Notes: generated by a model from the sequence alone, not told the origin. Positions 1-15,152 are shown, counted from the stretch's first letter. The stretch is 33,514 bases of DNA from a bacterium (GCA_025774545.1 JALGVU010000039.1:1-33514); one strand, 5' to 3'. Made by a program: numbers and translations.

Positions 1-1383
1 GGCGGGCACGTCGGTCAGGCGGTCGCGGGCGTCGCCAAGCGGGCCGGCTTCCGCGTCGTCGTGGTCGACGACCGCGCCGAGGTCGTCAGCCGCGAGCGAT
101 TCCCGTCCGCCGACGCCCGACACGTCGGTGGGACCGAGCTTCTTCGCGACGCGCTCGCGGTCGACGAGTCGACGTTCGTCGTGGTCGTCACGCGGGGACA
201 CCGGTTCGATCGCGCGTGGGTCGAGGCCGTTCTCGAATCCCGGCCGCGGTACCTCGGGATGATCGGGAGCGTAGAGAAGGTCGCGGGGTCCTTCGAGGCG
301 CTCGCCGCGAGCGGGGTCTCCCGGCTGGCGCTCGACGCGATCCACGCCCCGATCGGACTCGACATCGGGGCCGAGACGCCCGACGAGATCGCGGTCGCGG
401 TCGTCGCCGAGATCATCGCCGTCAGACACGGCATCTCCGACACGGCGATGCTCAAGGAGAAGGGCGAGCACAAGGGGAAGAACCGCCCGCAGGCTCGGAG
501 CCGAGGTGTGAACGTGACCACCGACTCGCTCGTCGTCGTGAAGGGCGCCGGCGATCTCGGAAGCGGGGTCGTCCACGCGCTCTTCCGCGCTGGCTACCGG
601 GTCGTCGCGCTCGAGAGCGAGCGGCCGACGGCCGTTCGGCGGGCCGCCGCCTTCGCGCAGGCGGTCTTCGACAGAGAGACCGTCGTCGCGGGCGTGACGG
701 CCAGACGGGTCGAGCTCGGCGACCTTGAGAGTGACCCCGGCGCGAAGGGCTGGGTGCCGGTCGTCGTCGATCCCGACGGAGCGGCGATCGATCGCTTGGC
801 GCCCGACGCCGTCGTGGACGCGCGGATGGCGAAGAGGAACCTGGGAACGCGGCGCGACGACGCGGCGCTCACGGTCGCGCTCGGCCCCGGATTCGTCGCG
901 GGCGCCGACGTCGATCTCGTCGTCGAGACGCAGCGTGGGGACTCGCTCGGCCGCATCATCGAAGAGGGCGCGGCGCTCCCGAACACGGGGGTGCCGGGCG
1001 AGGTCGGGGGCGCCACGCTCGCGCGGCTTCTGGTGGCGCCGGCCGCGGGGGCGTTCGTCCCCGAGGTCGCGATCGGGGACGAGGTCCGGAAGGACGACGT
1101 CGTCGGGACGGTCGCGGGGACGCCCGTCCGAGCCGGGCTCACGGGCGTCGTGAGGGGCCTCGTCGCGGAGGGGATCCGGCTGCCAGCCGGGGGCAAGGTC
1201 GGCGACGTCGACCCGCGCGGAAGCGCGGTCGATCCGGCGGAGATGTCCGACAAGGCACGTGCGCTGGGCCGCGCCGTGCTCGGGGCGCTTGCGAGCCGGG
1301 GACTCCGACCGGGCGGCAGACCCGGGGGCACGCCAGACGACAGGCCGACCGACGGGCCGGATGGCGGGCCGGACGGTGGATAG
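1..1383 (+). CDS. XdhC-type Rossmann domain fused to YqeB-type molybdenum hydroxylase accessory protein (5' partial)
   Basis: The frame is open from base 1, so the true start lies upstream. The visible part begins GGHVGQAVAGVAKRAGF, an NAD(P)-type Rossmann glycine loop, and continues as the C-terminal domain of XdhC, the factor that helps insert sulfurated molybdenum cofactor into xanthine-dehydrogenase-type enzymes. From about base 520 a second domain starts (VVVKGAGDLGSGVVHALF). It matches the YqeB/EF2563 family of selenium-dependent molybdenum hydroxylase accessory proteins and runs to about base 1240. The tail is a low-complexity Gly/Pro/Asp stretch. In E. coli the two functions are separate genes; here no stop separates them, although in-frame GTG codons at 508 and 514 could allow internal initiation. 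The 3' end overlaps the FAD-subunit gene. Domain calls are good; whether it acts as a single fused protein is inference. Confidence 0.8.
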   Translation, partial: GGHVGQAVAGVAKRAGFRVVVVDDRAEVVSRERFPSADARHVGGTELLRDALAVDESTFVVVVTRGHRFDRAWVEAVLESRPRYLGMIGSVEKVAGSFEALAASGVSRLALDAIHAPIGLDIGAETPDEIAVAVVAEIIAVRHGISDTAMLKEKGEHKGKNRPQARSRGVNVTTDSLVVVKGAGDLGSGVVHALFRAGYRVVALESERPTAVRRAAAFAQAVFDRETVVAGVTARRVELGDLESDPGAKGWVPVVVDPDGAAIDRLAPDAVVDARMAKRNLGTRRDDAALTVALGPGFVAGADVDLVVETQRGDSLGRIIEEGAALPNTGVPGEVGGATLARLLVAPAAGAFVPEVAIGDEVRKDDVVGTVAGTPVRAGLTGVVRGLVAEGIRLPAGGKVGDVDPRGSAVDPAEMSDKARALGRAVLGALASRGLRPGGRPGGTPDDRPTDGPDGGPDGG

Positions 1384-2284
1384 GCCGGCGTCGGCATGCG
1401 CGCCTCGCTGGGAGTCACCGGCGACGCTTGCGGAAGCCGCGGAGATCCTCCGCGACGCGGCCGGCTCCGCCCGCGCGATCGCAGGGGGCACCGACCTCGC
1501 CGTCCGGATCAGGCGCGCGGAGGAGCGTCCGGACGTGCTCGTCGATCTCGGCCGCATCGAGAACTCGGACGGGGTCGAACTTCGTCCCGAGGCCGGCGCG
1601 ATCGGGCGGATGGAGATCGGAGCGCTCGCGACGCACGCGACACTCGCCGAGCACCCGCTCGTCCGAGAGCACGCGAACGTGCTGGCCGAGGCCTGCAGGA
1701 CGGTAGGTGCGCCCCAGGTCCGCTCGCGCGGCACGATCGGAGGCAACCTCGCGAACGCGTCTCCCGCCGCGGACGGTGTGGTGGCGCTCCTGGCGCTCGA
1801 CGCGGCCGTGTGGGTTCAGTCGGCGTCGTCGTGCGCGGGCGACGCGGGCGCCGTGCCGATCGTCGACTTTCTGACGGGGCCCGGCGAATCCGTGCTCCGC
1901 GACGACGAGCTCATCGGTGGGATCGTCTTCGACCGCCCTTCGCCTGCCGCGAGAAGCGTCTATGTCAAGGCGGGCCAGCGGAACGCGCTCGCCATCGCGA
2001 TCGCGTCGGTCGCCGCGATCTTCGAGCCAGATGCTGGCATCGTCCGGATCGCGCTCGGATCGGTGGCGCCGACGCCCGTGAGGGCCGGCGACGCGGAGGC
2101 CCTCTTCGAATCCGATTGGCGCGGCGGCGCGGACCCGGAGACGCTCTTCGACGCCGTTGCTGCCGCTGCCGCTGCCGCGTCGAGCCCGATCGACGACGTC
2201 CGGGCGACCGCGCGGTACCGGCGCATCTTGACCGAGGCGCTGACGCGGTCGGCGCTCGACAGGATCTGTCTCAGGAAGGCGTGA
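1361..2284 (+). CDS. FAD-binding subunit of a xanthine dehydrogenase/CO-dehydrogenase-type molybdenum hydroxylase
   Basis: The protein is about 307 residues, close to the usual 290 for XdhB/CoxM-type medium subunits. It carries the FAD-binding signatures AIAGGTDL near the N terminus and RSRGTIGGNLANASPAADG in the middle, followed by a typical CO-dehydrogenase flavoprotein C-terminal domain. The subunit passes electrons from the Fe-S subunit to FAD during hydroxylation of purines or similar heterocycles. The ATG at 1361 overlaps the end of the XdhC/YqeB gene by 23 bases, suggesting coupled translation; GTG 1376 is an alternative start. Neither the molybdopterin-binding nor the 2Fe-2S subunit is in the window; they may lie upstream. 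The substrate cannot be read from this subunit, but adenine deaminase, transcarbamylases and a nucleoside importer downstream favour hypoxanthine or xanthine. Confidence 0.85.
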   Translation: MAGRTVDRPASACAPRWESPATLAEAAEILRDAAGSARAIAGGTDLAVRIRRAEERPDVLVDLGRIENSDGVELRPEAGAIGRMEIGALATHATLAEHPLVREHANVLAEACRTVGAPQVRSRGTIGGNLANASPAADGVVALLALDAAVWVQSASSCAGDAGAVPIVDFLTGPGESVLRDDELIGGIVFDRPSPAARSVYVKAGQRNALAIAIASVAAIFEPDAGIVRIALGSVAPTPVRAGDAEALFESDWRGGADPETLFDAVAAAAAAASSPIDDVRATARYRRILTEALTRSALDRICLRKA

Positions 2285-2408: not shown

Positions 2409-3479
2409 ATGTTCGACGAGCGTTTCAAGGGCAGGGACTTCATCACGATCCTGGACTACACAAGGGACGAGGTCGAAACCGTTCTCGACTTCGCGACGGA
2501 GCTCAAGGAGAGGTTCAAGAAGGGGCAGCCGCACAAGTACCTCGAGGACCGCACCCTCTTCATGATCTTCTACAACCAGTCGCTCCGGACCCGCAACAGC
2601 TTCGAGGCAGGGATGACGCAGCTCGGTGGGCACGCGCATTTCCTCGATCCAGGCACGATCTACGCCCCGGCGCTCGAGGGCGACGAGGTCGCGTACTCGA
2701 CGGAGCGGGTCTCCGACGTCGCGCGGGTGCTGGCGCGGATGGGCCACGGGATCTCGATCAGGATCTACGGCGACCCGGTCGAGTGGATCTACGGGAAGGC
2801 GAACCGCATCGTGCGCGAGTTCGCGCGCTGGGCCGACATCCCCGTGATCAACATGGAGTGCGACATCTACCACCCGTGCCAGGCGATGGCCGACATCCTG
2901 ACCGTTCGGGAGCAGTTCGGCACGTTCAAGGGGATCAAGTTCGTCATGAGCTGGGCCTACAGCCCGTCGGTCCACAAGCCGCTCTCGGTGCCGCAGAGCG
3001 CCATCGTCGCGGCGGCGACGGTCGGCTGCGACGTCGTGCTCGCGCACCCCGAGGGGCTGGAGCTCGACGACCGAATCCTCGCGGCCGCGCGCAAGAGGGC
3101 CGAGGAGTCCGGCGGCTCGTTCGAGATCTCGAACGACATGCGGGAGGCCTTCGCGGGCGCGCACGTCGTCTATCCGAAGGCCTGGACCTCGAAGGAGTTC
3201 ATCCCGCCGATCGCCGAGAAGCCGATGCTCGAGGAGACGCAGGCGCTCTTCGACGCGAACAAGGACTGGATCTGCGACGACGCGAAGCTCGCGCTCGCAG
3301 ACAAGGACGTGAAGTACATGCACTGCCTGCCGTGCGACCGCGGCTTCGAGGTCACGAACGAAGTGATCGACGGGCCGCACTCGGTCGTCTTCGACGAGGC
3401 GGAGAACAGGCTCCACGCGCAGAAGGCGATCATGGCCCTCACGATGGACGAGGTGGGAGGGGGCCCCGATGTCGGTTGA
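2409..3479 (+). CDS. Aspartate/ornithine carbamoyltransferase-family protein, HCLP type (YgeW- or acetylornithine-transcarbamylase-like)
   Basis: The protein has 356 residues. It carries the carbamoyl-phosphate loop S58-L-R-T-R62, the catalytic H155-P-C-Q158 motif and the H305-C-L-P308 loop of ornithine-type enzymes. The segment FVMSWAYSPSVHKPLSVP resembles the proline-rich knot region of acetyl- and succinylornithine transcarbamylases and the related catabolic YgeW group. The ATG at 2409 follows GGGAGG at good spacing, so upstream in-frame codons are not used. Its last 11 bases overlap the next, paralogous gene. In the catabolic direction such enzymes phosphorolyse a carbamoylated substrate to carbamoyl phosphate, which fits the carbamate kinase two genes on. 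A biosynthetic arginine role is possible, but no arg gene is nearby. The substrate is unknown. Confidence 0.85.
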   Translation: MFDERFKGRDFITILDYTRDEVETVLDFATELKERFKKGQPHKYLEDRTLFMIFYNQSLRTRNSFEAGMTQLGGHAHFLDPGTIYAPALEGDEVAYSTERVSDVARVLARMGHGISIRIYGDPVEWIYGKANRIVREFARWADIPVINMECDIYHPCQAMADILTVREQFGTFKGIKFVMSWAYSPSVHKPLSVPQSAIVAAATVGCDVVLAHPEGLELDDRILAAARKRAEESGGSFEISNDMREAFAGAHVVYPKAWTSKEFIPPIAEKPMLEETQALFDANKDWICDDAKLALADKDVKYMHCLPCDRGFEVTNEVIDGPHSVVFDEAENRLHAQKAIMALTMDEVGGGPDVG

Positions 3480-4476
3480 TCTCAAGGGGCGGGACCTCAT
3501 CTGCACGCAGGATTGGAGCGTTCCCGAGCTCGAGGCGACACTCGAGCTCGCCGCCCGGATGAAGAGGGAGCGCTACGCCGAGGACCACGCGCGAATTCTC
3601 AGGTCTCGGACGTTCATGATGATGTTCTACAACTCGTCGCTCAGGACGCGGCAGTCGTTCGAGGCGGCGGCGACCGAGCTCGGCGGCCACGCGCAGTTCC
3701 TCGAGCCCTCGAAGCTCAGGCTCCGAACCGCGACGCAGCGCGGCGAGGTCCTGCTCGATACCGCCAACGTGATGGCCCGCTACTCGTGCGGCATCGGGAT
3801 CAGGATCCTCGAGGATTCGGTCGAAGGGTACGGCGACGGGGACCGGTTTCTCCGGGAGTTCGCGGAGATCGCGGACGTCCCGATCGTGAGCATGGCGCAC
3901 GACAAGTTCCACCCTTGCCAGGGGCTGGCGGACGTGCAGGGCCTCCGGGAGCACATGGGCGAGACGCGGGGGAAGACCCTCCTTCAGGTCTGGGGGTACT
4001 CGCCGATGGTCCGCTCGTGGAGCTCCGTGCAGGAGAGCGTCCTCGTGAACTCGCGGTTGGGCATGAACGTGCGGCTCGCGTATCCTGCGGGCTTCGATCT
4101 CGATCCCGAGGTCATCGGACAGACGGAGGCGAACTGCCGGGAGAACGGGACGACGTTCGAAGTCACGCACGATCAGGAGGAGGCCTACGAGGGCGTCGAC
4201 GTCGTCTACTCGCGCCACTGGATGCACCCGAGCCGCTACACCGAGGGCCGGGAGGCCGACCAGCGACGCTCGGAGGAGCATCGCGACTGGCGCGCCACGT
4301 CTGAGCGGATGAAGAGGACGAACGATGCGTGCTTCATCCACCCGATGCCGATCGACCGGGGGAACGAGGCCGACGACGACGTGTGCGACGCCGAGCGCTC
4401 GATCATCTACGACGTGGCCGAGAACCGGCTGCACGCTCAGAAGGCCATCATGGCGCTCACGATGGGAGACGGGTAG
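3469..4476 (+). CDS. Second aspartate/ornithine carbamoyltransferase-family protein, HPMP type
   Basis: The protein has 335 residues and is clearly paralogous to its upstream neighbour. It has S57-L-R-T-R61 for carbamoyl phosphate, H148-P-C-Q151, and the same C-terminal signature ENRLHAQKAIMALTM. The substrate-side loop, however, is H291-P-M-P294 instead of HCLP, closer to the HPxP of aspartate-type enzymes, and the region after HPCQ has also diverged. The start ATG lies inside the end of the upstream gene (11-base overlap) behind a GGGAGGGGG ribosome binding site, so the two should be made together. Possible explanations are two substrates, or a hetero-oligomer, since family members form trimers with shared active sites. 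The basic fold and carbamoyl-phosphate chemistry are well supported; the acceptor is not known. Confidence 0.83.
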   Translation: MSVDLKGRDLICTQDWSVPELEATLELAARMKRERYAEDHARILRSRTFMMMFYNSSLRTRQSFEAAATELGGHAQFLEPSKLRLRTATQRGEVLLDTANVMARYSCGIGIRILEDSVEGYGDGDRFLREFAEIADVPIVSMAHDKFHPCQGLADVQGLREHMGETRGKTLLQVWGYSPMVRSWSSVQESVLVNSRLGMNVRLAYPAGFDLDPEVIGQTEANCRENGTTFEVTHDQEEAYEGVDVVYSRHWMHPSRYTEGREADQRRSEEHRDWRATSERMKRTNDACFIHPMPIDRGNEADDDVCDAERSIIYDVAENRLHAQKAIMALTMGDG

Positions 4477-4617: not shown

Positions 4618-5556
4618 ATGGGCAAACTGGCTGTCGTTGCCGTGGGAGGCAACTCGATCACGAAGGTCGGACAGCGCGGGACCATCCCCGAGCAGTTCGC
4701 GAACGCCCGGGAGACGAGCCGCCACATCGCGGACATGATCGCCCGGGGCTACGACGTCGTGGTGACGCACGGCAACGGTCCGCAGGTCGGGAACATCCTT
4801 CTCCGAGCGGAGATGGCGACGACGGTCCTGCCGCCGCTCCCGCTCGACACCTGCGGCGCCGATTCGCAGGGCGGTATGGGCTACATGATCCAGCAGGTCT
4901 TGGGAGGGGAGCTCGCGGCACGGGGAATCGAGAGGACCGTCGCCACGGTCGTGACGCAGGTCGTCGTCGACAGGTCCGACCCCGCGTTCGAGAAACCCTC
5001 GAAGCCGATCGGCCCGTTCTACACGCGTGAGGAAGCCGAGAGGAAAGAGCGAGAGGAAGGCTGGAACGTCATCGAGGACGCCAACAGGGGCTGGAGGCGG
5101 GTCGTGCCGTCGCCGCTCCCGAAGAGGGTCGTCGAAGCGGCGGCCATCGAGGCGCTCCTCAAGGCAGGCTGCGTCGTCATCGCCGTCGGAGGCGGCGGGA
5201 TCCCCGTCGTCGAGGAGGACGGCGGCCTCGTCGGAGTCGAGGCGGTGATCGACAAGGACCACGCGTCGCGCCTTCTCGCCAACGACATCGGCGCCCAGCT
5301 TCTGCTCATCTCGACGGACATCGAGAGGGTCGCGCTCAACTTCGGGGCCGAGAACCAGAGCTGGATCAAGGATCTCCGCATCGAGAGCGCGAGGAAGTAC
5401 TACGAGGAGGGGCACTTCGCTCCGGGCAGCATGGGACCGAAGATCCTCGCCGGCATCGCGTTCATCGAGGGCGGCGGCGAGGAGGTCATCATCACGAATC
5501 CCGAGTCGATCGGGAGGGCGATCGACGGCGAGACCGGAACCAGGATGACGAGGTAG
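4618..5556 (+). CDS. arcC: Carbamate kinase
   Basis: This 312-residue protein has the amino acid kinase fold and the typical length of carbamate kinase. Family features include the N-terminal VAVGGNSI phosphate loop, THGNGPQVGN, the GYMIQQ segment, VIAVGGGGIPVV, the DKDHASRLLA motif and the C-terminal ITNPESI. It catalyses carbamoyl phosphate + ADP to carbamate + ATP; carbamate then decays to ammonia and CO2. Next to two transcarbamylases it probably harvests ATP from carbamoyl phosphate made by phosphorolysis of a ureido compound. There is no arginine deiminase nearby, so the classical arginine pathway is not indicated. In E. coli the carbamate kinase homologue YqeA likewise sits with ygeW and xanthine dehydrogenase genes. 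The start follows a GAGAGGG ribosome binding site. Confidence 0.93.
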   Translation: MGKLAVVAVGGNSITKVGQRGTIPEQFANARETSRHIADMIARGYDVVVTHGNGPQVGNILLRAEMATTVLPPLPLDTCGADSQGGMGYMIQQVLGGELAARGIERTVATVVTQVVVDRSDPAFEKPSKPIGPFYTREEAERKEREEGWNVIEDANRGWRRVVPSPLPKRVVEAAAIEALLKAGCVVIAVGGGGIPVVEEDGGLVGVEAVIDKDHASRLLANDIGAQLLLISTDIERVALNFGAENQSWIKDLRIESARKYYEEGHFAPGSMGPKILAGIAFIEGGGEEVIITNPESIGRAIDGETGTRMTR

Positions 5557-5631: not shown

Positions 5632-7341
5632 ATGAAAGAGCTCGCGAAGATCATCAGAGTGGCGCGCGGGAAGATGCCTGCCGATCTCGTTCTCAAGAAC
5701 GCGCGGATCGTGAACGTGTTCTCGGCGGAGACGTACCGGGGGAACATCGCGATCTGGAACGGCAGGATCGTCGGGATCGGGGACTACGAGGGGAAGAAGG
5801 AAGAGGACATGGACGGCGCCTTCGTCCTGCCCGGCCTGATCGACGGACACATGCACATCGAGAGCACGATGGTGCGCGTGCAGGAGTTCGCCCGATCGGT
5901 CGTTCCGCGCGGCACGACGTCGGTCATCTGCGATCCGCACGAGATTGCGAACGTCCACGGTCTCGAGGGGATCCACTACATCCTGAACTCGAGCAAGTAC
6001 AGCCCGGTCAACATCTACGTCATGCTGAGCTCCTGTGTCCCCGCGACCGAGTTCGAGACGAGCGGCGCGAACCTCCGCGGATTCGATCTCTACCCGCTCC
6101 TACGTGAGAAGTGGGTGCTGGGTCTGGGTGAGGTGATGAATTACCCGGGCGTGCTCCTCGAGGACGAAGGGCTCCTGGACAAGATCTCCATGACGCACGA
6201 CAAGCGGATCGACGGGCACGCGCCGGGCCTGACGGGCAAGGACCTGAACGCGTACGTCGCGGCCGGCGTCTCGTCGGACCACGAGAGCACGTCGATCGAC
6301 GAGGTGCTCGAGAAGCTCAGGCTCGGCATGTACATCATGATCCGGGAGGGCTCGGTCACGAAGAACCTCCGCGACCTCCTGCCCGCCGTCACCACGGAGA
6401 ACCTCTCGAGGTGCTTCTTCGTCACCGACGATCGTCATCCGAAGGACCTTCTCGAGAAGGGGCACGTCGATCACATGGTCAAGATGGCCATCAAGGAGGG
6501 GCTCGATCCGATCTCCGCGATCCGCCTCGCGACGATCAACACGGCCCAGTACTTCAATCTCAAGGACCTGGGCGCCATCGCTCCCGGCTACGTCGCGGAT
6601 CTCGTGGTCGTCGACGGCCTGAAGCGCTTCAACGTCAGAGCGGTCTACAAGAGCGGGCGCGTCGTCGCGCGGAACGGCGAGATGGTCGTGCGTCCCCAGA
6701 AACTGCCCGAGATCACGCTCCGGAGTTCGATCAACATCAAGTGGCTCGCGGTCGAGGACTTCGACATCGAAGCAAAGGGAACGCGCGTCCGTGTGATCAA
6801 TCTCGTTCCCGACCAGATCATCACGAGGGGGAGCGTCGAGCGCGCGAAGGTAGAGAACGGCCGCGTGATCGCGGACATTGAGAGGGATCTCCTGCCGCTG
6901 GCCGTCGTGGAGCGGCACCTCGCGAGCGACAACATCGGGCACGGCATCGTCAAGGGATTCGGTCTCAAGAGGGGGGCAATCGCGAGCTCGGTGGCGCACG
7001 ATTCCCACAACATCGTTGTGGTCGGGACGAGCAGCGAGGACATGCTCGCCGCGGTCGTCGAGATCTCGAAGATGCGGGGCGGTCTCGCCGTTGTGAACAA
7101 GGGCAAGCTCGTCGCTGGCCTCGCCCTGCCGATCGCCGGGCTCATGTCCGAGGGCTCGCTCAAGGAGGTCGTCAAGGGGCTCGACGACGTGCGTCGGGCG
7201 GCGAAGCGCCTCGGATCCGCGGTCAGCGACCCGTTCATGGCCATGTCGTTCCTCTCGCTTCCCGTCATCCCCGAGCTCAAGGTCACCGACAGGGGGCTCT
7301 TCGACGTGAACGAGTTCGCGCTCACGGATCTCTTCGTCTGA
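5632..7341 (+). CDS. ade: Adenine deaminase
   Basis: The protein has 569 residues, the usual size for the bacterial Ade family of the amidohydrolase superfamily. The metal-binding motif GHMHIEST (H73, H75) is followed by SVICDPHEIANV, the central DGHAPGLTGKDLNAY and SSDHEST segments, FVTDDRHP carrying the late metal-binding aspartate, and the Ade-specific C-terminal domain with AHDSHNIVVVGTS. It converts adenine to hypoxanthine and ammonia in the cytoplasm. Hypoxanthine is a substrate for the xanthine-dehydrogenase-type enzyme suggested by the genes at the start of the window, so this gene is the best clue to the cluster's purpose. ATG 5632 follows GGGCAGGGTG. The 75-base gap upstream holds one weak CGGGG/CCCCG hairpin at 5576-5589. 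Confidence 0.93.
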   Translation: MKELAKIIRVARGKMPADLVLKNARIVNVFSAETYRGNIAIWNGRIVGIGDYEGKKEEDMDGAFVLPGLIDGHMHIESTMVRVQEFARSVVPRGTTSVICDPHEIANVHGLEGIHYILNSSKYSPVNIYVMLSSCVPATEFETSGANLRGFDLYPLLREKWVLGLGEVMNYPGVLLEDEGLLDKISMTHDKRIDGHAPGLTGKDLNAYVAAGVSSDHESTSIDEVLEKLRLGMYIMIREGSVTKNLRDLLPAVTTENLSRCFFVTDDRHPKDLLEKGHVDHMVKMAIKEGLDPISAIRLATINTAQYFNLKDLGAIAPGYVADLVVVDGLKRFNVRAVYKSGRVVARNGEMVVRPQKLPEITLRSSINIKWLAVEDFDIEAKGTRVRVINLVPDQIITRGSVERAKVENGRVIADIERDLLPLAVVERHLASDNIGHGIVKGFGLKRGAIASSVAHDSHNIVVVGTSSEDMLAAVVEISKMRGGLAVVNKGKLVAGLALPIAGLMSEGSLKEVVKGLDDVRRAAKRLGSAVSDPFMAMSFLSLPVIPELKVTDRGLFDVNEFALTDLFV

Positions 7342-7365: not shown

Positions 7366-8610
7366 GTGTACCGGCGGGTCTACATCGTTCTCTTCATGGC
7401 CGTCTTCGCCTCAACCATGGGGGTCGGGTTCATCGGCCCCCTCTTGCCGCTCTACGCCCGTGATCTCGGGGCGGCCGGTCTCACGCTCGGCATGATCTTC
7501 GCCGGGTTCTCCATGTCCCGCTTCATCCTGACGCCCTTCATCGGCAGGCTCTCCGACAAGCTCGGCAGGAAGATCTTCCTCGTCACCGGGCTCGCGATCC
7601 TCTCGCTCTTCTCGCTCGCCTACATCAGGGCGGAGACGGTCGCGCAACTGATCCTCGTCCGCGCGCTGCACGGCGCCTCGGCCGGGATGGTGATCCCGGT
7701 AGCCCAGGCCTACATCGGCGAGATCTCGCCGAAGGGGCGAGAGGGCGCCTACATGGGGACCTTCACGCTCTCGCTCTTCCTCGCCTTCGGCATCGGGCCG
7801 CTCCTCGGCGGGCCGCTGGCGGACCGCTTCGGGATGACGGTGCCGTTCGTCGTGATGGGAACCCTCGCCGCCGTCGCCTTTCTCCTGACGCTCATCTTCC
7901 TTCCGGAACTCGGGCTCCACAAGGAGCGCTGGAAGCGGCGCGTTCCCATGACGGTCTTCCTCGCCGAGCCCCTGGTGATTGCGCTCCTCCTGTTCCGCTC
8001 GGTCGTGTCGTTCGGACGGGGCCTCGTGATTCCGTTCCTCCCGTTCGTCGCCGAGTCGCTGGGGGCGTCGCTCTCGGTCATCGGCGTGCTGCTCGCCACG
8101 AACATCCTGCTCGCGGGGGTGCTCCAGGTCCCGTTCGGCCGGCTCGCCGACAGGGTGTCGCGGCCGCTTCTCATGGGACTCGGGATCATCGCAAGCGCGG
8201 CCGTCATCTTCGCGATCCCGTTCTGCAAGACCATCGGATCGCTCTTCGTGCTCCAGGCCGCCACGGGCGCCGCGGGTGCGCTCGGCTTCCCCGCGGGGCT
8301 CGCCGTGGCGACGCAGTGCGGGAGGCGGTTCAACGGCATGGGCACCATGATGGCTATCTACAACCTCGGGATGAGCGTCGGCCTCATTCTCGGGCCGCTC
8401 GCCGGCGGGGCCATCGAGGGGATCTTCGGGCTTGACTTCGTCTTCAAGGGTGGTTCTCTAGTGGTGGTGGCGGGGTTCGTCGCGTATCTCCTGATGATGC
8501 GGCGGGCGAAGCGCCTTGGGTCGTTCCGGCTTCTCGAGGACCCGCAGGAACCTGGGGGCGACGGCGAGGTCACGACGGACCACGAGCGGGAGGCCGTCCC
8601 CGCGGGCTAG
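7366..8610 (+). CDS. Major facilitator superfamily transporter
   Basis: This 414-residue protein has about twelve hydrophobic segments and begins at GTG 7366 behind GAACGAGGAGCG. It carries the MFS loop 2-3 signature GRLSDKLGRK, repeated in weaker form in the second half (FGRLADRVSRP), and the TM5-type motif GFGIGP-like GIGPLLGGPLADRFG. This places it in the DHA1/drug:H+ antiporter-like group. The short cytoplasmic C-terminal tail is charged. It starts only 24 bases after adenine deaminase, so it is probably cotranscribed. It could import a purine base, export an end product, or be an unrelated efflux pump; sequence alone does not decide. Confidence 0.85.
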   Translation: MYRRVYIVLFMAVFASTMGVGFIGPLLPLYARDLGAAGLTLGMIFAGFSMSRFILTPFIGRLSDKLGRKIFLVTGLAILSLFSLAYIRAETVAQLILVRALHGASAGMVIPVAQAYIGEISPKGREGAYMGTFTLSLFLAFGIGPLLGGPLADRFGMTVPFVVMGTLAAVAFLLTLIFLPELGLHKERWKRRVPMTVFLAEPLVIALLLFRSVVSFGRGLVIPFLPFVAESLGASLSVIGVLLATNILLAGVLQVPFGRLADRVSRPLLMGLGIIASAAVIFAIPFCKTIGSLFVLQAATGAAGALGFPAGLAVATQCGRRFNGMGTMMAIYNLGMSVGLILGPLAGGAIEGIFGLDFVFKGGSLVVVAGFVAYLLMMRRAKRLGSFRLLEDPQEPGGDGEVTTDHEREAVPAG

Positions 8611-8783: not shown

Positions 8784-9794
8784 ATGAGGAACGTCACAGC
8801 AGTCGCGATCGTCCTCTGTCTCGTCCTCACGGTGACGGGATGCAGAGAGCCGAAGGAGGCGCAGACCGAGGGCGTCTTCCGGGTCGGGATGGTCTTCGAC
8901 GTCGGAGGGAAGGGCGACAAGTCGTTCAACGACTCGGCGTACCGAGGTCTCCTCCACGCCGCCGACGAGTTCGGGGTCGAGCACACCGAGTTCGAGCCCG
9001 GACAGGACGCCGATCGCGAGACGGGGCTGCGGAAGCTGGCGCAGGCCAAGTACGACGTGATCATCGGCGTCGGGTTCCTGTTCAGCGAGGCCATGAGGAG
9101 CGTCGCCGTCGACTATCCGAACGTCCGTTTCGCGTGCGTCGACTTCGACGTGCGGCCGGACGAGACGCTCCCCCAGAACCTCGCCGGACTCAGGTTCCGC
9201 GAGGAGGAGGGGTCGTTCCTGGTCGGCGTGCTCGCCGCCATGCACACAGAGACCGGGCGGATCGGGTTCATCGGAGGCATGGACATCCCGCTCATCCACA
9301 AGTTCGAGGCCGGCTACATCGCCGGCGCCCGGCACGCGCGGCCCAGCGTCTCGACGACGGTGGCCTACACCGGGACGACGCCGCAGGCCTTCGCCGATCC
9401 GGCGAAGGGCAAGGAGCTGGCGCTTCTGCAGTACGGGCGCGGCGTCGACGTGATCTACCACGCGTCCGGCAGTACGGGGAACGGCGTCATCGAGGCGGCG
9501 AAGGAGGCCGGGAAGTACGCCATCGGCGTCGACTCGAACCAGAACTACATGGCGCCGGGGCACGTTCTCACGAGCATGGTGAAGCGGGTCGACAACGCCG
9601 TCTACATGACGGTGAAGTCCGTGCTCGATGGGACGTTCGCGGGAGGCGTCCGTGAGTTTGGGCTCGCGGACGACGGCATAGCCTACGCCGTCGACCAGTA
9701 CAACGAGGGCCTCATCACCGACGAGATGGCCGCGGCCGTCGAGGAAGCCAAGGCGGCGATCATCGCAGGCTCGATCGTCGTCCCGAAGGAGTAG
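8784..9794 (+). CDS. BMP/PnrA-family nucleoside-binding lipoprotein (ABC transporter)
   Basis: The 336-residue precursor has a lipoprotein signal ending LTVTGC, with the lipidated cysteine at residue 20. The mature part is a basic-membrane-protein (BMP) periplasmic-binding fold: VGMVFDVGGKGDKSFND at its start, then ARGAD-type segments, GFIGGMDIP and YHASGSTGNGVIEAAKE. Members of this family (PnrA in Treponema, BmpA, and the RnsB or NupN proteins) bind purine and other nucleosides. It is followed at 32 bases by its ATPase and then by two permeases of the matching family, so the operon is a complete importer apart from the inserted murJ. The purine genes upstream support nucleosides as cargo; affinity cannot be read from the sequence. 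Confidence 0.9.
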   Translation: MRNVTAVAIVLCLVLTVTGCREPKEAQTEGVFRVGMVFDVGGKGDKSFNDSAYRGLLHAADEFGVEHTEFEPGQDADRETGLRKLAQAKYDVIIGVGFLFSEAMRSVAVDYPNVRFACVDFDVRPDETLPQNLAGLRFREEEGSFLVGVLAAMHTETGRIGFIGGMDIPLIHKFEAGYIAGARHARPSVSTTVAYTGTTPQAFADPAKGKELALLQYGRGVDVIYHASGSTGNGVIEAAKEAGKYAIGVDSNQNYMAPGHVLTSMVKRVDNAVYMTVKSVLDGTFAGGVREFGLADDGIAYAVDQYNEGLITDEMAAAVEEAKAAIIAGSIVVPKE

Positions 9795-9826
9795 CACCGA
9801 CCTCGTCACCCGAGGAGCTCCGAGGC

Positions 9827-11404
9827 ATGGCCGCTGCGAACGCGATCGAGATGCGCGGGATCACGAAAGGATACCCGCGCGTCCTCGCTAACGACCGGGT
9901 CGATCTCGACGTCCGCAAGGGCGAGATCCACGCCATCGTCGGTGAGAACGGGGCCGGCAAGTCGACCCTCATGAAGATCCTCTACGGCCTGACACCGCCC
10001 GACGCGGGCGAGATCAGGCTCGAGGGGACGAGGCTGAACAAGCACCGCCCGTCCGACGCAATCCGGGCGGGCCTCGGCATGGTGCACCAGCACTTCATGC
10101 TCGTCGACACTCTGACGGTGGCCGAGAACGTCGTTCTCGGCGAAGAGCCGAGGGTCGCCGGGATCATGATCGACGCGGCCGCGGCGAGGGAGCGCGTCGA
10201 GAAGCTCTCCTCGCAGTACGGCTTCGAACTCGACCCCGACGAGTACATCGAGAACCTCTCCGTCGGCCTCGAGCAGCGCGTCGAGATCGTCAAGGTCCTC
10301 TACCGCGGCGCGAGGATCCTCATCCTGGACGAGCCGACCGGCGTGCTCACGCCGCAGGAGGTGAGCGAGCTCTTCGTCATCCTCCGAGCGCTCCGCGAGG
10401 CCGGATGCACGATCGTCTTCATCACGCACAAGCTCGACGAGGTGATCGAGCTCGCCGACCGGGTGACCGTCATGCGCGACGGGCGCGTGACCGGCGTCGT
10501 CGAGGCGGCCGAGACGACGAAGGAGGACCTCGCCCGGATGATGGTTGGGCGCGACGTCCTCCTTCGCGTGGAGAAGGCGCCGGCGACGGCCGGTGATACC
10601 GTGCTCGCAGTGAGAGGCCTCGCGGCCGTCGGACGGAAGGGAACGAAGGTCCTCGAGGACGTCGATCTCGAGATCCGCGCGGGCGAGGTGCTCGGCGTGG
10701 CGGGCGTTCAGGGGAATGGCCAGACGGAGCTCGTCGAGGTCCTGACGGGCTTGAGGAAGGCCCACGCGGGCGAGGTGCTCCTGGGGGGGGCCGACGTCAC
10801 CGGCCTCACGCCGCGCGCGATACGAGACCTCGGCGTGGCGCACATCCCGGAGGACCGTCAGGCGCGCGGTCTCGTCCTCGAGTTCACGGTCGCCGAGAAC
10901 CTCGTCCTGGGCCGCCATCATCGCGAGCCGTTCTCCCGGCGCGGCGTCCTGCGCCTCGACGCGATCCGCGAGCACGCGTCCGAGCTGATCCGCGAGAACG
11001 ACCTCAGACCACCCGATCCCGACGTCGCCGCCGGCACTCTCTCCGGCGGGAACCAGCAGAAGGTGATCGTCGCGCGCGAGTTCGACGGCGAGCCCACGCT
11101 TCTCGTGGCGTCGCAGCCGACGAGGGGCGTCGACATCGGGGCCGTCGAGTTCGTTCACCAGAGCCTCCTCGAGATGAGGGACAGGGGAGCGGCGGTGCTC
11201 CTCGTCTCGGCGGAGCTCTCGGAGATCATGACGCTCTCCGATCGCATCGCCGTGATGTACGGCGGGAGGATCGTCGCGACGTTCGAGTCCGGAGAGGTCG
11301 ACGAGGAGACCCTCGGACTCGCCATGACCGGGGCCTGGACAGGAGGCGCGACCGCGCGGAGCGACGGCGATCGCCGGGCGACTCCGGAGGTGACGGCCGC
11401 GTGA
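9827..11404 (+). CDS. Nucleoside ABC transporter ATP-binding protein (two ABC domains)
   Basis: The 525-residue protein has tandem ABC cassettes, as in the sugar/nucleoside (CUT2 or BMP) importers. The first has a complete Walker A GENGAGKST (39-47), a degenerate signature LSVG (144-147) and Walker B LILDEPTG with D168-E169. The second has a degenerate Walker A GVQGNGQTE (293-301), an intact LSGGNQQ signature (405-411) and a Walker B region reading LLVASQPTRG. This asymmetric pattern is normal for the family and is not a sign of decay. It powers nucleoside uptake with the flanking lipoprotein and permeases. The start ATG 9827 follows GGAGCTCCGAGG, and the stop overlaps the next gene's GTG by four bases. 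Confidence 0.93.
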   Translation: MAAANAIEMRGITKGYPRVLANDRVDLDVRKGEIHAIVGENGAGKSTLMKILYGLTPPDAGEIRLEGTRLNKHRPSDAIRAGLGMVHQHFMLVDTLTVAENVVLGEEPRVAGIMIDAAAARERVEKLSSQYGFELDPDEYIENLSVGLEQRVEIVKVLYRGARILILDEPTGVLTPQEVSELFVILRALREAGCTIVFITHKLDEVIELADRVTVMRDGRVTGVVEAAETTKEDLARMMVGRDVLLRVEKAPATAGDTVLAVRGLAAVGRKGTKVLEDVDLEIRAGEVLGVAGVQGNGQTELVEVLTGLRKAHAGEVLLGGADVTGLTPRAIRDLGVAHIPEDRQARGLVLEFTVAENLVLGRHHREPFSRRGVLRLDAIREHASELIRENDLRPPDPDVAAGTLSGGNQQKVIVAREFDGEPTLLVASQPTRGVDIGAVEFVHQSLLEMRDRGAAVLLVSAELSEIMTLSDRIAVMYGGRIVATFESGEVDEETLGLAMTGAWTGGATARSDGDRRATPEVTAA

Positions 11405-12534
11405 AGAGGCTCGCGAGGTTCACGAGCGTTCTCTCGCCGGTCGCCGCGGTCGCGGCGGCGTTTCTGGTCGGCGGCCTGGTCGTCCTGGCGATCGGGGAGA
11501 GCCCGCTCAGGATCTACGGGATCCTCTTCCGCGGCGCGTTCGGGAGCGTCGACGGTGTCGGGCTCGTCCTCTTCAACGCGTGTCCCCTCATCTTCGCCGG
11601 GCTCGCGGTTGCCTTCGCCTTCCGCGCCGGCCTCTTCAACATCGGCGGGGAGGGCCAGCTCTACATAGGATCGTTCCTGTGCGCGTGGGCGGGCCTCTCC
11701 GTCTCGTCGCTCACGCCCTGGCTCGCGATTCCGCTGCTCGTCGTCGCCGCGGCCGCCGGGGGGGCGTTGTGGGCGTCGATCCCCGGGTTCCTGAAGGCGC
11801 GCTTCGGCGTCCACGAGGTCATCAACACGATCATGATGAACTTCATCGCGATCGGGCTCACGAGCTATCTCGTGGTCAACGTCTTCAAGGAAGCGGGGCA
11901 GATGACGCCGCAGACGCCGAAGATCCTGGCGTCGGCCCATCTCCCGCGGCTGGCCGGCGCGGCCCGCGCGCTCGGGATTCCGCTTCCCGACGCAAACCCC
12001 CTGAACGCGTCGATCCTGATCGCGCTCGCCGCCGTCGGGCTCGCGTGGTTCATCCTCTATAGAACGACTCTCGGGTACGAGATCCGCGCCGTCGGCCTGA
12101 ACGCCGCCGCCGCAGAGAACGCGGGTATTAACGTCAGGCGCACGCTCGTGCTCGCGATGCTCCTGTCGGGGGCGTTCGCCGGTCTCGTGGCGACGAACGA
12201 GGTGATGGGGTTCCGGCACCGCTTCCTCGATAACTTCTCGGGCGGCATCGGGTTCATGGGGATCGCCGTGGCGCTCCTCGGGAAGAACACGCCCGTAGGC
12301 GTGCTCCTCGCGGCGCTTCTCTTCGGGGTGCTGAACACCGGCGCGCTCGAGGTCGACGTCTTCACCGACGTTCCGAGGGAACTCATACTCGTTCTCCAAG
12401 CGATCACCATCATCCTCGTCGTGGTCGGGAACGAGGTCCTGACGCGGCGGCTCGAGCAGCGGGTGAGACCTGCCGAGGCCACGGGCGCGGACGGGAACGC
12501 CGACGCCGGCGCGGCCACCGGGGAGGCGGCATGA
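11401..12534 (+). CDS. Nucleoside ABC transporter permease 1
   Basis: The 377-residue integral membrane protein has eight or more hydrophobic segments. The stretch FNIGGEGQLYIGSF is the hallmark of the first permease in BMP-type nucleoside importers (YufP/NupP-like), as are VHEVINTIMMNFIA and AVGLNAAAAENAGI. It begins at GTG 11401 in a GTGA overlap with the ATPase stop, and ends in an ATGA overlap with murJ, so three genes are translationally coupled. It forms half of the membrane channel with the permease encoded at 14250. The C-terminal tail is a charged, alanine-rich cytoplasmic extension. Confidence 0.92.
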   Translation: MKRLARFTSVLSPVAAVAAAFLVGGLVVLAIGESPLRIYGILFRGAFGSVDGVGLVLFNACPLIFAGLAVAFAFRAGLFNIGGEGQLYIGSFLCAWAGLSVSSLTPWLAIPLLVVAAAAGGALWASIPGFLKARFGVHEVINTIMMNFIAIGLTSYLVVNVFKEAGQMTPQTPKILASAHLPRLAGAARALGIPLPDANPLNASILIALAAVGLAWFILYRTTLGYEIRAVGLNAAAAENAGINVRRTLVLAMLLSGAFAGLVATNEVMGFRHRFLDNFSGGIGFMGIAVALLGKNTPVGVLLAALLFGVLNTGALEVDVFTDVPRELILVLQAITIILVVVGNEVLTRRLEQRVRPAEATGADGNADAGAATGEAA

Positions 12535-14228
12535 GCGAGCCCGCGGGGAACCGCAGGGTGTCGAGGGTCGTCGTCTCGGCGGCGTGGGTCGTCGGCTTCG
12601 CGATGATCGCGAAGGGATTCGCACTCTTCAAGGACGTGGTCATCGCCTCGCAGTTCGGGACGAGCTGGGTCATGGACGCGTATCTCGTCGCGTTCACGAT
12701 CCCCGCGATCATCACGAACTGGTTCCGGTCGCCGATCCGCTCAGGTTTCGTGCCGCTGTTCACCGAGCGCCTCGAGCATCACGGCGAGGCCGACGCGTGG
12801 CGCGAGGGCGGGACCTTCCTCGGCAACTTCCTCGTCGTGACGTTCGTGATCGCCGCCGTCGCCTTCATCACGGCGTCGCCGATCGTCTCCGCGGTGGCGC
12901 CGGGGTTCACGCCTGAAAGCCACGACCTGTCCGTCTCGCTCGTGAGGATCATGCTCGTCACGGTGGTGCTCGCCGCGCTCAACGGAACGTTCAGGAACTT
13001 CCTCCACGTCTACGGCAACTTCGCCCTGCCGGCGATGACGGCCCCGGTCACCAACATCATTCTGATCATAGCGGCGGTCTTCTTCACCGGCCGTTTCGGC
13101 ATCCACGCTCTCGCCTACGGCATCGCGCTCGGGAGCCTGGCGCACGCGCTCATCCAGGCCCCGATCGTCTGGCAGCACCGAGAGCACTTCCGGTTCCGCG
13201 TCGACTTCAGGAGCCCGATGTTCTGGGGCACCCTCAAGCTCGCGGCGCCGCTCTTCATCGGCATGGCCGGCGCCAAGCTCGACGAGGTGATCGACAGGAT
13301 CTTCGCGTCGCAGCTCACCGAAGGGAGCATCTCAGGCCTCGCGTACGCGATCCGCCTGATCGATCTCCCGCGTGAGATGCTCATCGTCGCGTTCTGGACC
13401 GTGCTCTTCCCGTTCTTCTCGCGGCTCGCCGCGAAGAACCAGATCGACGCGCTCTCCGAGCGGATGAACGCCTCGATGCGCATCTCGTTTTTCATCCTCC
13501 TGCCGGTCTCGGTCGCGATGGCGCTGCTCGGGGAGCCGTTCGTGAGGCTCCTCTTCCAGAGGGGAGCGTTCGACGAGCAATCGGTGAACTACACGGTCTC
13601 GGCGCTCCTGCTCTACACGCCGACGATCTGGGCGCAGGGGCTCTCGAGCACCATGCTCTCGGGCTACGTCGCGGTGAAGGACACGAAGACGCCGACGATC
13701 GCGGGCTTCATCCGCCTCGGCGTCAAGATCGGTCTCGTGTTCCTCTTCGTGGGACCCTTCCAGCACGCTGGGATCGCGCTGTCGACCTCGCTGTCGCACG
13801 CGTTCAAGCTCGTGCTCTTCATCGTGCTTCTACCCAAGCCCTTGAGGGGCGGCAGGTATCCGCAGATGTTCAGGGCGTTCGGGGGGACAGCGCTTGCGAC
13901 AGGTGTCATGGCGATCGCGCTCTACTTGCTCGGGAAGGCGACCCTCGGGATGGACATTCCCGATTCGCTCGGAGCGCGCATCGCGTTCCTCGGAGGCATG
14001 GCGCTCGCGGGGGCGCTCGTCTTCGCGGGGGCGGCCCACGTCTTCGCTCGGCGGGAGCTCGCGGAGACGTGGGACGGCGCACGGTCCGGAATCGCCGGGA
14101 TCTTGAAGCGGGACCGCGGCAAGAAGGGGCCCGGCGGGGGCCCCGGCCCCAGTACCGGCGGAGCCGGCGAGGAGGGTCCGGTCCCGGGTTCAGGCGGGGC
14201 CGACTGGGACGGCTCCGGTTCCGCGTAA
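12531..14228 (+). CDS. murJ: Lipid II flippase MurJ (MviN family)
   Basis: The 565-residue membrane protein has about 13-14 hydrophobic segments. It carries the MurJ features of an N-terminal helix with a conserved basic patch, WFRSPIRSGFVPLFTE after the first helices, and the RLLFQRGAFDEQS signature. MurJ flips lipid-linked peptidoglycan precursor across the inner membrane. A Gly/Pro-rich tail of about 40 residues follows the last helix and is probably disordered. The gene is embedded between the two nucleoside permease genes. It overlaps the first by four bases (ATGA at 12531) and lies 21 bases before the second, so it should be coexpressed with the transporter. The family assignment is firm; a link between cell-wall synthesis and nucleoside uptake is not known and may be incidental. 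Confidence 0.9.
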   Translation: MSEPAGNRRVSRVVVSAAWVVGFAMIAKGFALFKDVVIASQFGTSWVMDAYLVAFTIPAIITNWFRSPIRSGFVPLFTERLEHHGEADAWREGGTFLGNFLVVTFVIAAVAFITASPIVSAVAPGFTPESHDLSVSLVRIMLVTVVLAALNGTFRNFLHVYGNFALPAMTAPVTNIILIIAAVFFTGRFGIHALAYGIALGSLAHALIQAPIVWQHREHFRFRVDFRSPMFWGTLKLAAPLFIGMAGAKLDEVIDRIFASQLTEGSISGLAYAIRLIDLPREMLIVAFWTVLFPFFSRLAAKNQIDALSERMNASMRISFFILLPVSVAMALLGEPFVRLLFQRGAFDEQSVNYTVSALLLYTPTIWAQGLSSTMLSGYVAVKDTKTPTIAGFIRLGVKIGLVFLFVGPFQHAGIALSTSLSHAFKLVLFIVLLPKPLRGGRYPQMFRAFGGTALATGVMAIALYLLGKATLGMDIPDSLGARIAFLGGMALAGALVFAGAAHVFARRELAETWDGARSGIAGILKRDRGKKGPGGGPGPSTGGAGEEGPVPGSGGADWDGSGSA

Positions 14229-14249: not shown

Positions 14250-15152
14250 ATGTTCGAACTGGCGATCTTCGACGCCGCACTGAGAATGGCGACGCCACTC
14301 ATCCTGACCGCGCTCGGCGGTCTCTTCTCCGAGAGGTCGGGCGTCATCAACATCGCGCTCGAGGGGATTCTCCTGACGGGCGCCTTCGCGAGCATCGTGG
14401 CGACGTTCTACACGGGCGACCCGTGGGTCGGCGCGTTCGCCGGCATCCTCGCAGGTGTTCTCGTCTCCCTCATTCACGCGATCGTGTCGATCGTCTTCAA
14501 GGCCGACCAGATCGTGAGCGGCGTCGCCATCAACCTGCTCGCGATGGGGGCGACGCAGTTCCTGACGTGGATCATCTGGGGCAGCTCCGCAAACTCGCCG
14601 CCCGTCGCCGGAATGGCCCACTGGACGCTGCCTGAATCGTGGGGCGCTCTCGCGCGCGGGGTGAACGCGGTGATCGGTCACTATCCGCCGCTCGTCTACG
14701 TCGCGCTCGCCGCCGTGTTCGTCTCGCACCTCGTTCTCTGGCGGACTCCCTTCGGCCTCAGGCTGCGCGCGACCGGCGAGCACCCGGAGGCCGTCGAGAC
14801 GCTCGGCGTGAACGTGAGGAAGATGCGATTCGCGGGCGTGCTCCTCTCCGGGGCGCTCGCAGGGCTCGGCGGGGCCTTCCTCGCTCTCAACACGCACCAG
14901 TTCGTGAAGAACATGTCGGCCGGGCGGGGGTACATCGCCCTGGCCGCGATGATATTCGGGAAGTGGAACCCGCTGGGCGCGCTCGCCGCGTGCCTCCTCT
15001 TTGGCTACGCGGAGGCCGTTCAGATGGGGCTCCAGGGGCGCGGTGTCCCCACGCAGTTTGTGCAGATGATCCCCTACGTGCTCACCATGGTCGCGCTGGT
15101 CGGCGTCATCGGACGGACGCGGCCTCCCGCGGCGAGCGGGAAGCCCTACTAG
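14250..15152 (+). CDS. Nucleoside ABC transporter permease 2
   Basis: The 300-residue membrane protein matches the shorter second permease of BMP-type nucleoside importers (YufQ/NupQ-like). It shows the family's TALGGLFSERSGVINIALEG segment at the N terminus, FKADQIVSGVAINLLAMG, and TGEHPEAVETLGVNVRK between membrane helices. It pairs with the permease encoded at 11401. The ATG at 14250 follows GAGAGGTACGACGC. Separation from its partner by murJ is unusual, since the two permease genes are normally adjacent. The next gene starts 33 bases downstream and may be cotranscribed. Confidence 0.92.
   Translation: MFELAIFDAALRMATPLILTALGGLFSERSGVINIALEGILLTGAFASIVATFYTGDPWVGAFAGILAGVLVSLIHAIVSIVFKADQIVSGVAINLLAMGATQFLTWIIWGSSANSPPVAGMAHWTLPESWGALARGVNAVIGHYPPLVYVALAAVFVSHLVLWRTPFGLRLRATGEHPEAVETLGVNVRKMRFAGVLLSGALAGLGGAFLALNTHQFVKNMSAGRGYIALAAMIFGKWNPLGALAACLLFGYAEAVQMGLQGRGVPTQFVQMIPYVLTMVALVGVIGRTRPPAASGKPY

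Follow-up and report, generated by a model that had tools for sequence, protein, structure and literature searches.

Uric acid can be degraded reductively, through yanthine, ureidomethylhydantoin and 2,3-diureidopropionate (DUPA) (PMC12507026, PMC12990295), by a pathway described in 2025. DUPA carries two ureido groups, of which one is phosphorolysed by YgeW and the other hydrolysed by YgeY, and YgeX leads to pyruvate (PMC12507026, PMC12990295). The order and identity of the two ureido-cleavage steps are an open question in the pathway (PMC12990295), and phosphorolysis of a ureido group is thermodynamically unfavourable, as noted for YgeW (PMC12507026). Transcarbamylases have also been described in other settings. 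The UGTCase of Rubrobacter replaces a hydrolase, allantoate amidohydrolase, and adjoins carbamate kinase (PMC4016543), and DPTCases, found in zwittermicin and viomycin clusters, carbamoylate diaminopropionate to beta-ureidoalanine (albizziin) (PMC4581275).

We analysed a bacterial DNA stretch of 33,514 nucleotides (the window) in which two transcarbamylase genes, here named TC1 and TC2, lie in tandem ahead of a carbamate kinase gene. Our preferred reading, to which we give a probability a little over one half, is that they belong to a variant of the reductive uric-acid pathway in which both enzymes, as homotrimers working in the catabolic direction, would phosphorolyse DUPA.

YgeW, the knotted YTCase of the E. 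coli uric-acid cluster, has a Pro-rich loop (AYSPSxxKPLSVPQ), five residue equivalents and the HCLP motif in common with TC1, and keeps the same gene company as the pair (HyuA, SsnA, carbamate kinase, Xdh, YqeB and MocA). However, it is only 33% identical to TC1 and 29% to TC2, its C-terminal extension is missing in both, and its system combines one transcarbamylase with YgeY, whereas here there are two transcarbamylases and no YgeY. The likeness to UGTCase is that a step of purine breakdown done elsewhere by a hydrolase is done by phosphorolysis, with carbamate kinase next (PMC4016543); UGTCase differs in being ATCase-like, with an H[ST]LP motif and no Pro-rich loop, and in acting on allantoate in an oxidative pathway. 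The DPTCase reaction is the reverse of a step proposed here, but those enzymes form an unknotted group with an HDLP motif and work in the biosynthetic direction. AOTCase from Xanthomonas campestris is the nearest solved knotted fold for the models of both proteins, with which it shares the Pro-rich loop and the extended 120's region; its W77 has an equivalent in neither, TC2 has R249 for its K252 and no equivalent of its E144, and its context is biosynthetic. Finally, in the C. difficile variant the PreA/PydA-type UacX replaces YgfK (PMC12507026), as in Eisenbacteria relatives of the window, but that variant retains YgeY and YgeX and uses the amidohydrolase UacY for YgeW, while here there are two transcarbamylases and YgeY is absent.

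The transcarbamylase pair and its gene neighbourhood

The window is one entire contig (C351) of a 4.1 Mb genome in 512 contigs, 96% complete. The named close relatives of this genome are Candidatus Eisenbacteria and Effluviviaceae MAGs, and it is itself an Eisenbacteria-type MAG; 20 genomes made up our family comparison set. TC1 (2409..3479, + strand, 356 aa) was recognised as a Pro-rich-loop transcarbamylase, putatively of the knotted type, with an HCLPCD motif from its Pfam domains, residues, tree position and AlphaFold2 model, and TC2 (3469..4476, + strand, 335 aa) as a second, divergent member of the Pro-rich-loop kind with the motif HPMPIDRG. As the initial annotation had claimed, their reading frames overlap by 11 bases (3469..3479, + strand), both proteins carry the SLRTR, HPCQ and ENRLHAQKAIM motifs, they differ at the substrate loop (HCLP in TC1, HPMP in TC2), and a carbamate kinase gene, whose product would make ATP from carbamoyl phosphate and ADP, adjoins them 141 bases 3' of TC2 (4618..5556, + strand; NCBIfam TIGR00746 arcC, 392.5 bits, cut-off 358).

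TC1 and TC2 are 39.9% identical across 343 aa, and each contains both Pfam domains, OTCace_N and OTCace, complete. Compared with four relatives, dN/dS was 0.13-0.20 for TC1 and 0.12-0.18 for TC2. The tandem is found in 17 of the 20 family genomes, and both genes were partly recovered in an eighteenth. Since dN/dS is low in both genes and the tandem recurs in most of the family, the pair is not a chance arrangement. A degenerate copy was also considered, and rejected because catalytic residues are retained and dN/dS is low in TC1 and TC2 alike.

The overlap itself is restricted to the window and three of its close relatives. In other Eisenbacteria ~10-23 bases separate the genes, depending on start codon choice, the spacing reaches kilobases in other phyla, and TC2 has its own GGAGG-type site 5' of its ATG. 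Coupled translation, which had been proposed for the pair, is therefore possible but not a conserved feature, and we no longer regard it as a key property of a locus whose overlap is local to four related genomes. Catabolic loci had also been said to carry usually a single ygeW. That is generally so, yet a different sort of adjacent pair has already been published in Nocardioides, where a pseudo-ATCase adjoins ygeW (PMC4016543).

On the 5' side of TC1, on the same strand, are the C-terminal part of XdhC fused in one frame with YqeB, for molybdenum hydroxylase maturation (1..1383, truncated by the contig start; NCBIfam TIGR03309 YqeB, 300.9 bits, cut-off 220; NF045664 XdhC-related, 129 bits), and the FAD-binding subunit of a xanthine-dehydrogenase-type enzyme (1259..2284, with its true start probably at ~1397). 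The latter matches the FAD gene of the relatives in position and order, and a relative's FAD-gene protein matches XdhB models and Pfam FAD_binding_5. Carbamate kinase is followed, also on the + strand, by adenine deaminase (5632..7341; NCBIfam TIGR01178, 649 bits, cut-off 472), an MFS transporter present in most relatives' clusters (7366..8610; MFS families, all below equivalog cut-off) and a BMP-type ABC transporter (8784..12534; NCBIfam BMP/B6-type ABC families, below cut-off) consisting of a binding protein (8784-9794), an ATPase (9827-11404) and a permease (11401-12534). An additional permease is encoded at 14250-15152 (Pfam BPD_transp_2), and the transporter is probably specific for purine nucleosides. 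A MurJ-family flippase gene (12531-14228; Pfam MurJ, 270 bits) lies within this ABC operon, between the two permease genes, a layout repeated in G003 (L025 693-2354) and G001 (L038 4522-6132).

In relatives, a single stretch contains PreT-PreA, HyuA, SsnA, a ThrC-like lyase, the 2Fe-2S and FAD subunits of Xdh, MocA, XdhC, YqeB, TC1, TC2, carbamate kinase and adenine deaminase. The HyuA and SsnA of these relatives, close to Xdh-type genes and a transcarbamylase, score above the TIGR02033 and TIGR03314 cut-offs, respectively, and molybdenum subunits are found elsewhere in the genomes, outside the cluster. PreT-PreA directly precedes the SsnA/HyuA region in G014, where PreA adjoins HyuA, and PreA is on the same contig in G003 and G011. 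A search of the 512 contigs of the window's own MAG found no PreA, and its SsnA and HyuA are on separate contigs. Homologues of SsnA occur in 16 of the 20 family genomes and those of HyuA in 16 of 20, the window genome included, and G004 and G019 have neither the TC1-TC2 pair nor SsnA. Judged by sequence, the neighbourhood of the pair appears to be the gene set of the reductive uric-acid pathway, and the PreA-type reductase of the relatives probably corresponds to C. difficile UacX. Of the 48 TC2-bearing genomes searched, 44 have an SsnA-family match, above cut-off in 27 (against 1 of 14 controls), which is evidence for TC2 tracking the uric-acid pathway.

Other genes recur in these clusters. 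An aminotransferase, a split transketolase and a PCC-domain protein belong to the relatives' cluster; the transketolase N and C parts, the PCC-domain protein and the aminotransferase, of class I, can be seen inside the Eisenbacteria purine cluster at L027 13668-14915, L033 3986-7419 and L149 17862-19901, and L171-L173 have PCC and aminotransferase genes at the equivalent place. A CysK-like PLP enzyme of 490 aa is encoded near TC1-TC2 in 11 loci (e.g. L073 7250-8722, L065 7155-8621) and is, together with the ThrC-like protein, a candidate diaminopropionate lyase.

The E. coli YgeY query gave no match in seven of eight Eisenbacteria genomes searched, the eighth yielding a single trivial hit, and for YgeX only weak PLP-fold matches were found in the Eisenbacteria genomes searched. 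Two other lineages, WOR-3 (L065/L166) and L073/L167, also gave no YgeY-family match; both have PreT, PreA, SsnA, a ThrC-like gene and TC1-TC2-carbamate kinase-HyuA. YgeY is above cut-off in 19 of the 48 TC2-bearing genomes, and Chloroflexota (L058, L061, L071) have TC2 near an M20 hydrolase with no TC1 nearby. TC1 and TC2 are accompanied by a YgeY above cut-off in at least seven genomes, as near neighbours in L068 and L099, and therefore TC1/TC2 is not everywhere a replacement of YgeY. In L171-L173 the order FAD-YgeY-(RarA-like AAA gene)-carbamate kinase-adenine deaminase stands against the Eisenbacteria order FAD-TC1-TC2-carbamate kinase-adenine deaminase. We dropped this positional swap as proof of replacement, because the L171-L173 genomes hold the TC1-TC2 pair elsewhere too. 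The AAA gene between YgeY and carbamate kinase in the purine cluster of these related MAGs encodes, as judged by eye from sequence, a RarA/MgsA-type protein (L171 6229-7575, L173 16801-18153). In our literature searches, no paper beyond PMC12507026 connected a pair of transcarbamylases with Eisenbacteria or Elusimicrobia.

Active sites, fold and phylogeny of TC1 and TC2

The features that define the transcarbamylase superfamily (SxRT, HPxQ and HxxP motifs, the conserved beta4 Arg and the two Pfam domains) are present in TC1 and TC2. We took the carbamoyl-phosphate residues and the second-substrate residues of YgeW from PMC4581275 and mapped them by alignment. Every carbamoyl-phosphate residue is retained in both proteins (S, R and T of SxRT, the strand-4 Arg, H and Q of HPxQ and the Arg of the C-terminal region), while at the second position of HxxP TC1 has Cys and TC2 has Pro. 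For YgeW, the residues proposed to bind the second substrate are K270, Q160, S200, K203, D334 and E344 (PMC4581275). TC1 has five of the six, with K257, S187, K190, D310 and E314 for K270, S200, K203, D334 and E344, and E150 at Q160. TC2 shares just the D334 and E344 equivalents, and has R249, A143, M180 and R182 at the columns of K270, Q160, S200 and K203. Across the TC2 family, R182 and R249 are invariant at positions that are Lys in YgeW, and the S200 column holds M or L. Arg84 of the TC2 80's loop is also invariant; its position is that of the residue lent by the neighbouring subunit to the carbamoyl-phosphate site, and it therefore suits a TC2 homotrimer. Since the second-substrate and 80's-loop residues are fixed within each family and differ between the two, the comparison favours TC1 and TC2 acting on two related but different substrates.

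The Pro-rich loop insertion is SWAYSPSVHKPLSVPQ in TC1, where it follows the pattern WAYSPSxxKPLSVPQ as in YgeW, and VWGYSPMVRSWSSVQE in TC2; OTC, PTC and ATC are without it. Both proteins have an extended 120's region, as in knotted transcarbamylases, and in the 240's loop they have YPKAW and YSRHW instead of the RxQ of ATC or the DxxxSMG of OTC. AlphaFold2 models (pLDDT 94.1 for TC1 and 93.3 for TC2) superpose on AOTC structures with an rmsd of 2.0 and 2.4, and on P. furiosus OTC with 3.6 and 2.9, respectively; the best PDB match of TC2 is the AOTC 3kzk. The AOTC W77 column is A86 in TC1 and L85 in TC2. With the NCBIfam YgeW models TIGR03316/NF005538 TC1 scores 163.8/170.6 bits and TC2 122.4/124.8, both far below the cut-offs of 500/453, and with the N-acetylornithine transcarbamylase model NF003384 (cut-off 288) TC1 is just above, at 291.8, and TC2 below, at 243.7.

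In a tree of 95 sequences that included OTC, PTC, ATC, YgeW and AOTC, TC1 is a single clade (22 rows, support 100/96), as is TC2 (53 rows, 100/100). OTC, PTC and ATC fall outside them and YgeW and AOTC near, the branch of AOTC being long and its position uncertain. The depth of the two clades led us to reject a recent duplication. TC1 and TC2 are each an old, monophyletic family of the Pro-rich-loop kind, and their range takes in both bacterial phyla and Asgard archaea, with members in Eisenbacteria, Elusimicrobia, Chloroflexota, WOR-3, Auribacterota, Myxococcota, a Bacillota MAG, Thorarchaeota and Heimdallarchaeota. Outside Eisenbacteria the TC1-TC2 tandem occurs in Elusimicrobia, WOR-3, Chloroflexota and Thorarchaeota; the genes are separated in Heimdallarchaeota, and L094, L098 and L100 have them on opposite strands or with kilobases between them. 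In the locus stretches examined, Myxococcota, Chloroflexota and Auribacterota have TC2 with carbamate kinase and no TC1 nearby. The TC2 motif is HPMP[IV]DR in bacteria and HCGPVDR in Thorarchaeota (L075, L078, L081-L083, L086, L088, L089, L091, L093, L100); in those Thorarchaeota genomes SsnA-like proteins are mostly below cut-off, and no strong YgeY was found. We know of no characterised member of the TC2 family, and curated models go no further than assigning its members to acetylornithine or ornithine enzymes.

A third transcarbamylase clade, TC3 (HCLPAKR; L057 1438-2508, L059 5753-6823, L063 8393-9460, L070 662-1675), lies beside TC2 in Elusimicrobia and Auribacterota. It is related to an HPLP transcarbamylase of Pusillibacter faecalis, encoded on a conjugative plasmid from the human gut (NZ_AP023421.1; L182 3316-6984) in a consecutive row with preA and a HyuA-like amidohydrolase. 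This row adjoins a cytosine permease and a nitrilase-type hydrolase and is possibly a phosphorolytic pyrimidine pathway.

The window genome has four transcarbamylases: the TC1-TC2 pair, an ornithine type (argF) on C6 and an aspartate type (pyrB) on C494. Because argF and pyrB are separate, we reject a biosynthetic role of the pair, and together with the purine cluster their presence supports the catabolic, purine-related role first suggested from the sequence. Two outcomes were to refute that suggestion, a firm grouping of one copy with biosynthetic acetylornithine enzymes in genomes without argF and a loss of catalytic residues in one copy. Neither came about: argF is present, neither copy groups firmly with AOTC, which joins TC1 weakly (84/33), and the carbamoyl-phosphate site is complete in both. 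That these are acetylornithine enzymes of biosynthesis mistaken for catabolic ones is thus largely refuted, and we consider it very improbable. TC1 does pass the acetylornithine cut-off, if barely, and AOTC is among the nearest folds, but argF elsewhere in the genome, the purine cluster, the missing W77 equivalent in TC1 and the weak join in the tree all speak against it.

Proposed removal of the two ureido groups

In the route we propose, an Xdh-type reductase, a PreA/UacX-type reductase, SsnA and HyuA would convert purines to 2,3-diureidopropionate. TC1 and TC2, as two separate homotrimers running in the catabolic direction, would each use phosphate to take off one ureido group, so that 2,3-diaminopropionate is left and two carbamoyl phosphates are formed, from which carbamate kinase would produce two ATP with CO2 and ammonia. 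The ThrC-like PLP lyase would be the likely final step, to pyruvate, and the second transcarbamylase would stand in for the YgeY hydrolase of E. coli. Since DUPA has two ureido groups and the cluster contains a carbamate kinase and a pair of transcarbamylases but no YgeY, phosphorolysis of both groups, yielding two ATP, is suggested. UGTCase (PMC4016543) is a precedent for a transcarbamylase taking over from a hydrolase in purine degradation, and DPTCase (PMC4581275) for one that couples diaminopropionate with carbamoyl phosphate. Against the route stand the unfavourable thermodynamics of ureido phosphorolysis (PMC12507026), the genomes that combine TC1 and TC2 with YgeY, the TC2-carbamate kinase loci with no TC1 nearby, and the failure to find PreA in the window's own MAG. 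More tentatively, this may amount to a doubly phosphorolytic variant in which both ureido groups pass through carbamoyl phosphate to ATP, with a better energy yield from purines for Eisenbacteria, WOR-3 and possibly Asgard archaea, and in which TC2 could be a catabolic diaminopropionate transcarbamylase.

The initial annotation left a choice between two substrates and a mixed trimer. Two substrates is the better half, given two ancient clades with fixed residues of their own, whereas a mixed trimer coupled by translation finds no specific support in an overlap that is local, in genes that several lineages keep apart or on opposite strands, and in TC2-carbamate kinase loci with no TC1 nearby. 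A mixed trimer, or an obligate TC1-TC2 complex, might still perform a single YgeW-type step and leave the second ureido group to an unrecognised hydrolase. The tandem or near-tandem layout maintained across several phyla would agree with this, as would active sites that sit between subunits (PMC4581275) and the several genomes with TC1, TC2 and YgeY. We nevertheless think it improbable, since the 80's loop is fixed within each family and differs between the two, both carbamoyl-phosphate sites are complete, L094, L098 and L100 have the genes kilobases apart or on opposite strands, and many loci have TC2 with no TC1 nearby.

The assignment of the two enzymes within our preferred route is tentative, and their roles may be reversed, stereochemical or lineage-dependent, because some genomes have TC1, TC2 and YgeY and the Chloroflexota have TC2 near an M20 hydrolase. 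TC2 would then be the general YgeW-type enzyme, for the first ureido group, and TC1 the stand-in for YgeY, or the two would differ in D/L stereochemistry and not in position. Those Chloroflexota loci (L058, L061, L071), with no TC1 nearby, favour such an exchange, and HPMP resembles the HPxP of aspartate transcarbamylases, whose target is an alpha-amino group, a resemblance we take as a lead only. It is TC1, not TC2, that retains the second-substrate residues of YgeW, and we regard an exchange as unlikely, though worth keeping in mind. Another reading would have one of the pair, probably TC2, phosphorolyse N-carbamoyl-beta-alanine produced by PreTA and dihydropyrimidinase, in a cluster for purines and pyrimidines. 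PreA and HyuA families also act on pyrimidines, and the Pusillibacter plasmid places preA, amidohydrolase and transcarbamylase in a row by a cytosine permease and a nitrilase-type hydrolase. But SsnA, the Xdh subunits, MocA/YqeB and adenine deaminase are purine markers, TC2 co-occurs with the SsnA family in those 44 of 48 genomes, and the Pusillibacter enzyme groups with TC3, outside TC1 and TC2, so that we give this reading little credence.

We are thus dealing with a real, conserved pair in a known type of pathway, for which a new division of labour is plausible. If both transcarbamylases do phosphorolyse DUPA, the ATP recovered at the ureido-cleavage stage would be doubled, and two separable enzymes could settle which ureido group leaves first. 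It would also assign a role to the widespread TC2 family, with its 53 sequences from many phyla and Asgard archaea.
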